Shown: positions 2,123-64,000 of the stretch, one piece after another
Layout: every line of letters starts with the position of its first letter
How positions within the stretch are numbered: the first letter of the stretch is position 1
Assembly: GCA_032622095.1 (NCBI GenBank)
Contig: CP136061.1
Location: 57,243,301-57,307,300, forward strand
DNA: 64,000 bases
Direction: 5' to 3'
DNA from: Siphonodentalium dalli
Taxonomy: Eukaryota; Mollusca; Scaphopoda; Gadilida; Siphonodentaliidae
Program-made: the position numbers and the translations under genes
The notes under the pieces: model-generated
Databases searched by the model: none
The model's input: the letters and a program-made list of their open reading frames with translations, nothing else
Told to the model about the DNA's origin: nothing

Positions 2123-5023
2123 TTAGTTGTTGACTATGTAGCCGAATTATCAGACAGCTGATTAATGTCACCCAGTTCAATCTGTCTTTTTGGCACATCT
2201 GTATCTGTATGTGGTTTCAGTGCAGGATCCTGTCGGATGTATTAGCACACGGGATGAGACTATGACGTGGTGTTTGATGTTGTTTCGTCCTCTGATGGAA
2301 GTAGAGAGCGCATAGAATCCTCTTCAAGATGGTTTCAATCAAGAATAGTCCGTGGAAAGTAGGAATTTCGGTATTCTGCACGATCGGCCTTAATAATTTC
2401 ATATGGTTTAGAGTTTATACAGTCTAGGCTTTGAACAAAGTTATTTGCAGTGAAGCCGTCGAATATTTTGGCCTTGATTTTTCTCCCACTTTGATGTTTA
2501 GGTTTCAAGAGTCCTTTGGTGTTGATAACTGGGACCAGTCCATCCACTATCTTGCCAAACAATTGCACTGTTTGGTCTGTCCTCCTGCCTTCCATGGTCT
2601 GCAGCATGATATGTTTCCGCATGTTTGTTACAGCTACTTCTTCTCTAGATGTATAATCACCGGTGATAAACCTTACTGCCCTCCTCTGTATCATCTCCAA
2701 ATTTTCAATGTCTCTCTGCAGATGAGGGTCCCATACGACTGCTGCATACTCTAGTTTGGTGCGCACTAGTGTCTCATGCGCGATTTGTTTGCTCTTTCCT
2801 GGTGCTCTTCTCAGGTTCCGGCGAATAAATCCTAGAGTGCTATTTGCCTTGCTTACTGTTTTCCCGATGTGAGGTGACCAATGCATGTCGTTGGATAATG
2901 TGACGCCAAGATATGGGCTTTCCTGAATCCATGATTTAGTTTTGATAGGATGTCATGGTCTTCCAGATGGTTTATGATGTGGCGGCATATTATGTGTTCT
3001 AATATCTTGCAACACACATATGTAAGCGAGACCGGTCTGTAATTTTCGACTTGGTGCACGTCCCCTTTCTTGTATATTGGTGCGATGTTTGCACTGAGCC
3101 AGTCGTCTGGTAGAATCCCTGTTGCAATGGATTTCTGGAATATGGTGGTAAGTCCTGGTGCAATTTCGTGTGCACATGTTTTCAGCACGATGTTTGGGAT
3201 ACCACCAGGTCCGGGAGCTTTCCCTCGCTTTACGTCCTTCAGCAGTTTGGTTACACCGTCTACTATTATGTCCAGTTGTTCTATGCTTTCGGTGTCCTTG
3301 TTCAGTGGTGGTATACTCTCATCAGGGTTTTCTCTGGTGAATACTGATTTGAACTGCTGTACCAGAATGTCGGCCTTTCCCACACTGTCATCCACTAACT
3401 TCCCCTTGTTCTTTAAGGGTGCAGTGCCGATGTTGCCCTTGTTTTTAGTCTTCACGTAAGACCAGAATGGTTTGGTGCTTTTCTTCTCCATTCCATTGAT
3501 CATGATCTTGTTCAAGTGATCCCATTCTGCCTGCCGAAAAGCTCTCCTAGCTGTTTTTTTTTAATTTTCTATATTTCTCCCACTTGTTCTTATCTTTGGA
3601 TTTCTTCGCTTTCTTGTATAGGCGGCACTTTTTCTTTAGTATGTTCTTCAGTTTCTTGTTCATCCACGGGACTTGGTTTTGTTGTCTTGTTGGTATGCTG
3701 GGGACATTTTCATGGATGGATTTCATGATGCCGTTTTTAAAGTCCTCCCATAGGCTGTTTGTATCTACTTCAGGGTTTTCTGCTAGGGTATTTATTTCCT
3801 TGCTCAAGTTTGTTATGTCTTCAGCTATCGTGGACCACTTCGCCTTTTTGAAAGCGTATGCTTTGCGCTTGATTTGTTTTTTGGTATACGGTTTAGTTGT
3901 GCAATCCGTTACTACGATGTCATGGTCTGATATACCTGGTGTTGTGCTTGTTGCCTTGATCAAATCGGGGTTGTTTGTCAGTACGAGGTCAATGACATTT
4001 TTCTTCTCTGGTTGGATTTCTCTGTACCTGCTTCAGTCCATGTTCAATACATATATCAATCAGTGTTCTCTGGACATCTGCGTCAGCTGCTCCTGATTTC
4101 ACTACCAAGTTGTCCCAATTTATGTCCGGGCAGTTGAAGTCGCCTGAGATAATGATGTCCTTGTGATGTTTTACGTTGAGAGTGCGCAGCGATTTATTGA
4201 GTTCCGTCAGGTGTTTTACGTCTCGGTGTGGCATGTAAAAGGATGCAAGATAGAGGTCTTTCTTGGCTGTGGTTTTTATCTTTGCCCACTCAACTTCACA
4301 GTCTGTAACAAGGTCCGAAAGTTCAACTGTTGGTATTGAATCCTGTGTACAGATGAAGACGCCTCCCCCTTTAGTGCTTCTGTCGTTTCTGAGCACATTA
4401 AGATTTGGTGGGAAAATCTCTGAGGATTTAATAGCATCAGCAGAAGTGGGTCTACCTGGTTTCACTCCTCTCAGCCACGATTCCGTGCCTATGATGATAT
4501 CTGGCTTGATGTAGTTTATTGCAGCTGAGAATTCTGATCTGTTTTGTTGTACGCTTCTACAATTTGTTGTCATTATCCTCATATTGTGTTTGTCGGGGAG
4601 TTCATATATTTGGTTGGACGAGCTGGTGCGTTCACTCGATGATATTTGAATTCCTTTCCTCGTAGCTGTAGCAGTGGTCGTCTGATGTGGCGATGAAGCA
4701 GCTGGGCTGCTGGTTCTCGGTGGGTTAAAAACAGAGTTGTTTAGGCTATTGAGACTTATATTCATTGAGTCAGGGTAAAAATAGTCGCGTGAGGTTTCCA
4801 GTTCATAACTCCTGTAGGTGAAGCTGTCTATACTGACATTGTCGCATTTGCAACAGTACCATTGTATACTTGGGTTTGCCAGTTTTTCATATTCTGCTGT
4901 TGACATCTCCATGCAGGATTTATGGTACCAAATATCGCACTCTTCGCAGCAAACGACACCTCTTACCCAGGTGACATCATCTTGGCAGAAGCCGCATGGG
5001 TAAATGCTGGCTTGTCTTTTCCT

Positions 5024-53009: not shown

Positions 53010-53390
53010 CTGAATAGGTCACTCTCACCGGTTTTCTGTGATAAAGTTACCCAGGTTCCTGAAATTGTGATAAAGTTACCCAGGTTGGAGAAGAATGTGA
53101 TAAAGTTACCCAGGTTAATACTAGTTCATGTTTAGCAACAAATTATTGATTTTTGTGATCAAAATGACGAACTACAGTACTAATATGTCTTAATTTATGC
53201 TTGATAAGGGCTATTACTTGCCAAAACTGAACAATATTTCCCTCTGTCACTTTTAAATCGAGTTGATATTGTGAGATTTGCTTAAACTGGGTAACTTTAT
53301 CACAATTCTCACCAACCTGGGTAACTTTATCACAAAATTAGGAACCTGGGTAACTTTATCACAGAAAACCGGTGAGAGTGACCTATTCAG
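53010..53390. mobile_element. MITE with ~109-bp inverted ends and 11-bp target duplication
   Basis: Left end 53010-53118 and right end 53282-53390 are inverted copies, about 92% identical, starting CTGAATAGGTCACTCTCACC. Each end contains three copies of TGTGATAAAGTTACCCAGG spaced about 28 bp. Flanks are TAATAATATGA (52999-53009) and CAATAATATGA (53391-53401). The joined flanks match continuous sequence on the minus strand at about 49890-49990, which is an empty site. Long inverted ends with 9-11-bp duplications suggest a Mutator-like (MULE) origin; this is inference. No coding capacity. Confidence 0.85.
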
Positions 53391-62840: not shown

Positions 62841-63155
62841 TACATTCACCTTCTAAAACCAATTTCACGTGAGACCGTGTCTTTGATCTTGGCGGTAATG
62901 ACCTTGGCATCGCTCATATACTCATATAGGCATGTTTCTGGACCTCGACCGATCCAACTCAAATTTGGTATGTATGCCTACTTTGATCCCGGGAACAATA
63001 TGGGCGAGTCCAATTTCACGGCGACCGTGTCCTTGACCTTGACCTAGACCTAGACCTCGCCCATAGTTTGTCCAAACGCTGTATATTCTGCCCAGACGGA
63101 GGCGATCACAAAGAAATCCCTAAGTAGCCCGGACGAAGTCGGGCACATCAGCTAG
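62840..63155 (+). mobile_element. Helitron-like unit, 3' part, ending in hairpin plus CTAG
   Basis: Ends with hairpin GCCCGGACGAAGTCGGGC (63127-63144) and, after seven bases, CTAG (63152-63155). Upstream are two copies of a ~156-bp core repeat (CCAATTTCACG, then ACCGTGTCYTTGA, near 62860 and 63012), similar to 38650-38900. The 5' boundary is unclear. Core repeats plus a Helitron end recall HINE/pearl elements of molluscs. Confidence 0.65.
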
Positions 63156-63787
63156 TCTCATATATATTTTGAAGACCTCTGTTTGTCTGTCTGTCTGTCT
63201 GTATGTCTGTCTGTCATTAATACAATTCTACGATTATCGACCGATCGGGACGAAACTTGGTACGTGGGTGTAGTTTGACAAGGCGGTCGTCGTTGTCGTA
63301 TTGGCGAGCCCGTGTGGCGCCCGCTTCGCGCATGCGCAGACGAGATCTCGGAAACGGGTGGATCAATCGACTTGAAATTTGCTATGTGAATGTATCTTGC
63401 CCCGGATACGAATTGTATCGGGTCGCCGAGACCGTGCGTCGCCAGCTTCGCGCATGCGCAGACGAGATCTCGGAAACGGGTGGAGCAATCGACTTGAAAT
63501 TTGCTATGTGAATGTATCTTGCCCCGGGTACGAATTTTATCGGGTCGCCGAGCCCGTGCGTCGCCAGCTTCGCGCATGCGCAGACGAGATCTCGGAAACG
63601 GGTGGAGCTATCGACTTGATATTTGGTATGTGAATGTATCTTGCCCCGGATACGAATTTTATCGGGTCGCCGAGCCCGTTCGACGCCAGCTTCGCGCATG
63701 CGCAGACGAGATCTTGGAAACCGGTGGAGCTATCGACTTGAAATTTGGTTTTTGAATAGCCCGGACAACGTCGGGCTCATCGGCTAG
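63156..63787 (+). mobile_element. Helitron-like unit, complete, 632 bp, in tandem
   Basis: Starts TC directly after the CTAG of the preceding unit (TCTCATATATATTTTGAAGA), carries a (TCTG)n run near 63183-63215, four 122-bp repeats (CATGCGCAGACGAGAT at 63331, 63453, 63575 and 63697), and ends with hairpin GCCCGGACAACGTCGGGC, then CTAG (63784-63787). The next unit again starts TC at 63788. TC start, hairpin and CTAG end match Helitron termini. No Rep/helicase frame; the GC-rich open frames here come from the repeats. Confidence 0.75.
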
Positions 63788-64000
63788 TCTCATATATAGT
63801 TTGAAGACCTCTGTCTGTTTGTTTGTTTGTCTGTCTGTCTGTCATTTATACAAATCTACGATTCTCGACCGATCGGGACGAAACTTGGTACGTGTGTGTA
63901 GTTTGACCAGGCGGTCGACGTTGTCGTATTGGCGAGCCCGTGCGGCGCCCGTTTCGCGCATGCGCAGACGAGATATCGGAAACGGGTGGAGCTATCGATT
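63788..64000 (+). mobile_element. Helitron-like unit, cut by the window edge
   Basis: Repeats the start of the previous unit: TCTCATATATAGTTTGAAGA, a TCTG/TTTG run, the CGACCGATCGGGACGAAACT block and the beginning of the first 122-bp repeat (GCGAGCCCGTGCGGCGCCCG). Continues beyond 64000. Confidence 0.75.

Follow-up and report, generated by a model that had tools for sequence, protein, structure and literature searches.

The window analysed here is a 64,000-nucleotide stretch of the Siphonodentalium dalli genome (C1:57243301-57307300), and the structure that we describe occupies its last 850 bases. Direct reading of these bases revealed a complete, non-autonomous Helitron of 632 bp at 63156-63787, assigned to a family that we call A, which starts with TCTCATATATA and ends with a 3' hairpin followed by CATCGGCTAG. 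The next family A unit starts at 63788, also with TCTCATATATA, and there are zero host bases at either junction. The features of the array, in window coordinates, are as follows.

62899..63155, + strand: 3' part of a Helitron of a second family, X, ending in a hairpin and ACATCAGCTAG; matches loci L092-L096 from about 62860/62899
63127..63144, + strand: 3' hairpin of the X unit, GCCCG...CGGGC (DNA folding, -5.6 kcal/mol, z -2.2)
63152..63155, + strand: CTAG 3' terminus of the X unit, abutting the TC of the next unit (read from the sequence)
63156..63787, + strand: complete family A non-autonomous Helitron, 632 bp (read from the sequence; identical ends genome-wide)
63156..63181, + strand: 5' terminus TCTCATATATATTTTGAAGACCTCTG, TC and then TA-rich (15,772 exact genome copies)
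63178..63215, + strand: CTGT microsatellite near the family A 5' end (repeat analysis)
63305..63747, + strand: internal 122-bp tandem repeats, 3.6 copies; their number differs among units and sets unit length
63758..63777, + strand: 3' hairpin of the family A unit, AGCCCG...CGGGCT (DNA folding, -6.4 kcal/mol, z -2.4)
63784..63787, + strand: CTAG 3' terminus, abutting the TC at 63788 (read from the sequence)
63788..64000, + strand: second family A unit, 628 bp, to window coordinate 64415; two further units follow to 65457, then host DNA

An earlier sequence-only reading of the window had described two successive joins at which a hairpin plus CTAG runs immediately into TC, without host bases between units, in an array that continues past the window edge. 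All of this was borne out: CTAG at 63152-63155 and at the end of the complete unit is followed directly by TC at 63156 and 63788, and extension into the genome showed that the array reaches 1.46 kb beyond the edge. The family A units are 632 bp (C1:57306456-57307087), 628 bp (ending at 57307715), 533 bp (ending at 57308248) and 509 bp (ending at 57308757) long; the fourth has its initial TC mutated to TA. The array ends with CTAG at C1:57308757, followed by host DNA starting with T (CTAG|TATTAATATATT). The proposed 632-bp period describes the first unit and not the later ones, unit length varying with the 122-bp internal repeats and the CTGT microsatellite. Nor is the unit 5' of 63156 a copy of the same repeat, as had been supposed; it belongs to family X, which has its own body and a hairpin similar to that of family A. 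We found X-to-A junctions like that of the window at at least 30 loci. Elsewhere in the window, a 141-bp tandem repeat (3.6 copies) lies at the start (6-505), and two short arrays of ~29-bp repeats, with units that resemble mutual reverse complements, lie at 53037-53116 and 53287-53363.

The units in the window are canonical Helitrons (Helitron1), the short ones being non-autonomous derivatives. The window units and thousands of copies have a 5' TC and a 3' CTAG (CTRR). The hairpin AGCCCG...CGGGCT lies 10 nt from the 3' terminus (z -2.4) and is less pronounced in families B and C; the elements insert between a host A and a host T, and no target-site duplication is formed. Among 39 loci on contig C1, picked by exact 5' ends, solo copies were common; a host A preceded the TC in 30 of 31 copies lacking an upstream element, and CTAG was mostly followed by a host T. 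The outer ends of all sampled arrays were clean (A|...|T). Dispersed single copies with the same boundaries as the array, for which the earlier reading had proposed a search, are common. Unoccupied look-alike sites pass through A^T without duplication, although their left halves vary; when the sampled flanks were searched with BLAST for empty sites, the matches were mostly the arrays themselves, with boundaries off by a few bases, and were set aside. Membership of the Helentron, Helitron2 or HINE groups was rejected on the basis of the A^T insertion and CTAG end, where T-T insertion and subterminal inverted repeats would be expected.

A RepHel-coding partner with 5' and 3' ends as in family A lies at C2:141790964-141799534. 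This 8.57-kb element has a 1650-aa RepHel open reading frame with Helitron_like_N, REP_ORF2-G2P and PIF1 domains and with an HUH motif (LPHSHIL), a two-tyrosine motif (YVCKY) and a Walker A motif (GGTGKT); the first 466 bp of the element share 96% identity with a short family A unit. The shared ends of this partner, together with the dispersed A|TC...CTAG|T copies, confirm the Helitron-like identity first proposed for the window units. Another RepHel element, at C1:13739600-13749400, also has the family A 5' end; no 3' end was identified in that locus. The RepHel N-terminus carries 23-aa repeats matching Pfam STPRs (E 8e-23; L089:3029-6400, equivalent to C2:141793328 on, and also L036). The STPR is a DNA-binding repeat known from silkworm FMBP-1; of the ten papers listed by a literature search, none combined STPR and Helitron. 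Further RepHel domains, 8-12 kb apart on one strand, occur at C6:36914596-36934946, C2:137056337-137069026, C1:114628540-114639087 and C1:179793298-179817598, and are perhaps more tandem autonomous elements. At C1:114628540-114639087, the RepHel domains are separated by a stretch containing two family B-type CTAG|TC joins.

We next consider how often, and how exactly, such elements are joined. The exact 26-base family A 5' end occurs 15,772 times in the genome, and CTAG lies immediately before 7,872 of these copies (49.9%), compared with ~62 (0.4%) expected if the four bases were random. Reversed-pattern controls gave 0 matches. Exact counts were used because counts with up to two mismatches mix families, the A and B 5' starts differing at two positions. 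Within the 39-locus sample, 47 of 65 family A 3' ends (counting L045) ran straight into another Helitron 5' end; only this total is used, since the loosely matched "5A" class of following ends includes B starts. For family A 5' ends of the sample no more than 40 bases downstream of a 3' end, the spacer was 0 in 109 cases, -1 in six, +2 in one and +11 in one. The tandem arrays show exact CTAG|TC joins. About 5% of close joins are CTA|TC, without the G of CTAG (L040:405 and 1031; L044:393; L070:1409 and 2838; L088:745). Both inner joins of L040 are of this kind, and its outer 3' end is a normal CTAG.

Joins are not confined to one family. We found A-B, C-A, A-C, B-B, X-A and A-X joins, all with the same exact CTAG|TC. 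In the sample, A was followed by B 20-25 times and C preceded A eight times, A before C and B before B were also present, and one locus (L093) has the order A-X-A-X. A-to-B joins far outnumber B-to-A joins, with a ratio of exact-hit density of ~10:1 genome-wide and counts of 25 versus 1 in the sample. Among the matches listed, about half of the family B 5' ends follow G rather than A. One A-type element lies within a C-like element, at an A^T 11 bp from the start of the latter.

We compared neighbouring units by diagnostic sites, rare variants and internal repeat number as well as by identity, because a burst of copies of similar age would look alike and identity alone is therefore weak evidence against amplification. 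Within the window array, identity among the four units is 93.1-94.6%, lower than that of each unit to its nearest relative elsewhere in the sample (95.2-97.4%). Median identity was 95.1% in 64 adjacent pairs and 94.2% between arrays; concordance at 14 diagnostic columns was 0.688 for adjacent pairs and 0.619 for random pairs; and internal length was equal in 17% of adjacent pairs, as against 7.5%. In 46 of the 64 adjacent pairs the two units had no rare variant in common, and in 9 they had two or more. Units of one array are not, in general, near-identical siblings of equal length: by both estimates, sibling pairs make up about 10-20% of adjacent units. A burst of similar age would not account for the different families or the different internal repeat numbers. 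Most neighbours being unrelated copies, the majority of chains appear to have been put together from separate elements and not copied out of a single circle.

We also observed signs of copying. The autonomous element is itself present as a dimer (C2:141790964-141808110), whose two units are 99.87% identical and meet in an exact CTAG|TC; directly upstream of the dimer lies a short family A unit, and the 3' boundary is CTAG|TATTATATATAATG. A long array, L011 (C9:171486500-171496400), consists of repeated trimers of unlike family A units, a satellite-like higher-order structure in which units three apart are mostly 98-100% identical and neighbours about 95%. The dimer and the trimer repeats indicate that, besides being assembled from unlike units, arrays also undergo copying of units or of blocks.

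The sites of insertion share a motif. In 20 of 22 host 3' flanks, T is followed by TATATA within +2 to +14; among A^T sites used as controls, the proportion is 2.15%. Neither of the two exceptions is a true host flank, one being a CTA|TC junction and the other an internal site. The starts of the elements themselves (TCTCATATATAT, TCTATTATATAT and TCTATACTATATAT) match the layout of the host motif. A resident 5' junction, formed by the host A and the T of the element, is therefore a good target under the family's own target rule. TATATA look-alike sites are very common (~4.4 per kb), so that target similarity alone cannot yield the 50% share of joined ends, and we therefore assume specific recognition of resident ends. 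Target similarity must be supplemented, either through such recognition on the part of the transposase or through arrays being copied as blocks.

Taking these observations together, we narrowly favor a model in which most joins arise by serial insertion at resident 5' ends, with occasional amplification of whole arrays afterwards. In this model, a Helitron group sharing the TC...hairpin...CTAG layout (families A, B, C, X and others) would be served by one autonomous RepHel transposase, and head-to-tail joins would arise mostly one element at a time. The transposase would recognize and presumably nick the resident 5' junction (host A|TC), since this site shares the feature of the host targets, A^T followed by alternating TATATA. 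The 3' CTAG of the incoming element would be joined to the resident's TC, leaving the host A outside and giving A|TC...CTAG|TC...CTAG|T, in which the units abut without intervening host bases. The new 5' junction would again be a target, so that arrays would probably grow at their 5' side. Pre-formed arrays may sometimes be copied as a block, by end-bypass and rolling circle or by unequal exchange, yielding higher-order repeats and sibling units. If arrays grow at their 5' side, an age gradient from 5' to 3' is expected, with the 5'-most unit youngest; the gradient observed had the predicted direction and was not significant (p 0.10-0.15; adjacent steps 32 versus 31). A more specific proposal, which we put forward tentatively and at somewhat less than even chances, is that the transposase prefers the 5' end of any resident relative as an integration site, the TA-rich start mimicking the host target, and that arrays of unlike elements grow at the 5' end and then move as units.

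The earlier reading had attributed the array to rolling-circle amplification without termination, in which a single circle containing CTAG|TC is copied repeatedly and the concatemer inserts at one A^T, making all units siblings. Exact CTAG|TC junctions are what Helitron circles contain (PMC4778049, PMC5876387), and the near-identical autonomous dimer, the trimer repeated at 98-100% identity in the long array and the 9 of 64 adjacent pairs with two or more rare variants in common all fit such copying, which stands for a minority of joins (~10-20%). However, subfamily alleles, internal repeat number and rare variants distinguish most neighbours from one another, different families are joined, and the estimated sibling share is only ~10-20%. 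For most junctions the attribution lacks support, as it does for the window array, whose units are closer to copies elsewhere than to each other. Rolling-circle amplification as the main route is already contradicted, and we consider this account of the arrays unlikely. Slightly better placed, though still improbable on balance, is the spread of rare mixed composites by end-bypass, whereby transposition starts at one TC, skips internal CTAG hairpins and stops later, moving arrays as blocks. End-bypass is established for Helraiser (PMC4778049), and the recurrence of the window's X-to-A junction at at least 30 loci, the clean outer A|...|T ends of all arrays, the repeated trimers of unlike units and the recurrence of the variant CTA|TC inside arrays with a normal final CTAG are all consistent with it. 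The first mixed join would nevertheless need a separate origin, and the orders A-X-A-X, A-C-A, C-A and A-B suggest many different joins. It also weighs against serial insertion that junctions could multiply through the copying of mixed arrays already in place, with no further insertion events; the recurrent X-to-A join may reflect either repeated insertion or a composite spread by end-bypass.

Two further explanations fare worse. Unequal crossing-over or gene conversion between tandem units could build or reshape arrays, in keeping with the higher-order repeats and 98-100% identity blocks of long arrays and with the variable number of 122-bp internal repeats; but neither process can make the first dimer or join different families at exact termini, and both predict alike neighbours, which are the minority, so we regard this route to the arrays as quite improbable. 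Chance clustering through many independent insertions into shared AT-rich hot spots would draw on the strong TATATA preference at host sites. Hits within TATATA would, however, leave 2, 4 or 6 host bases between elements, whereas there are none in 109 of the 117 close pairs and 2 in just one, and a random CTAG before the 5' end would be expected ~62 times rather than the 7,872 observed; the spacer distribution already refutes this explanation, to which we give almost no weight. Plain AT-rich targeting was ruled out by the spacer distribution and the number of look-alike sites.

Head-to-tail Helitrons are already known from bats, maize and plant centromeres, and the scale and mixed composition are what is notable here. 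Such arrangements are frequently cited in support of rolling-circle replication. Tandem Helitron arrays in plant centromeres were described by Xiong, Dooner and Du 2016 (cited in PMC5148889). They were reportedly attributed to rolling-circle replication; the units of these centromeric arrays are said to be truncated, often with many 5' ends and one 3' end. The present arrays likewise have many Helitron ends in tandem, but each unit has both ends and the short arrays are dispersed. In Myotis lucifugus, Helibat elements lie head-to-tail with an exact CTAG|TC and no host A between units (Pritham and Feschotte 2007, as cited in PMC2267711 and PMC5876387); the citing accounts describe several cases, read as tandem repeats, whereas here there are thousands, mostly with unlike neighbours. 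At maize r1, two different adjacent Helitrons are joined CTAG|TC, and one of the routes proposed there takes the host A together with the T of the resident's 5' end as the insertion site (PMC2267711). That study concerned one pair, followed by PCR across maize lines, with no array or genome-wide count, whereas here joins were counted genome-wide.

The RepHel elements resemble Helraiser and Helibat1 in their TC...hairpin...CTAG structure, A^T insertion, 3'-flank AT preference and HUH and helicase domains (PMC4778049, PMC5876387). Helraiser has an AT-rich left end and an AT-rich target preference strongest on the 3' flank (PMC4778049), and CTAG|TC circles and end-bypass are described for this system (PMC4778049, PMC5876387). 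By contrast with the present genome, the cell-culture work on Helraiser shows circles and not mixed arrays, and the protein described here adds N-terminal STPR-type repeats. The short units also recall the oyster Cg_HINE Helentrons, which are non-autonomous, have internal tandem repeats and a microsatellite near an end, and reach high copy number (PMC7492417); those elements differ in having subterminal inverted repeats and another insertion site and protein, where ours have A^T insertion and CTAG ends.

The thousands of natural joins in this genome allow the prediction of sibling units to be tested, and most of them do not bear it out. Should serial insertion at resident 5' ends prove to be the main route, a tandem arrangement of Helitrons would not on its own point to concatemeric replication, and genome data could be used to test how the transposase chooses its targets. 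A transposon can also become satellite-like arrays and mixed composites. In L009, the 3' end of an array is partly duplicated together with its host flank (2317-2885 and downstream), and a reverse-transcriptase-like non-LTR sequence lies at ~3150-4500.
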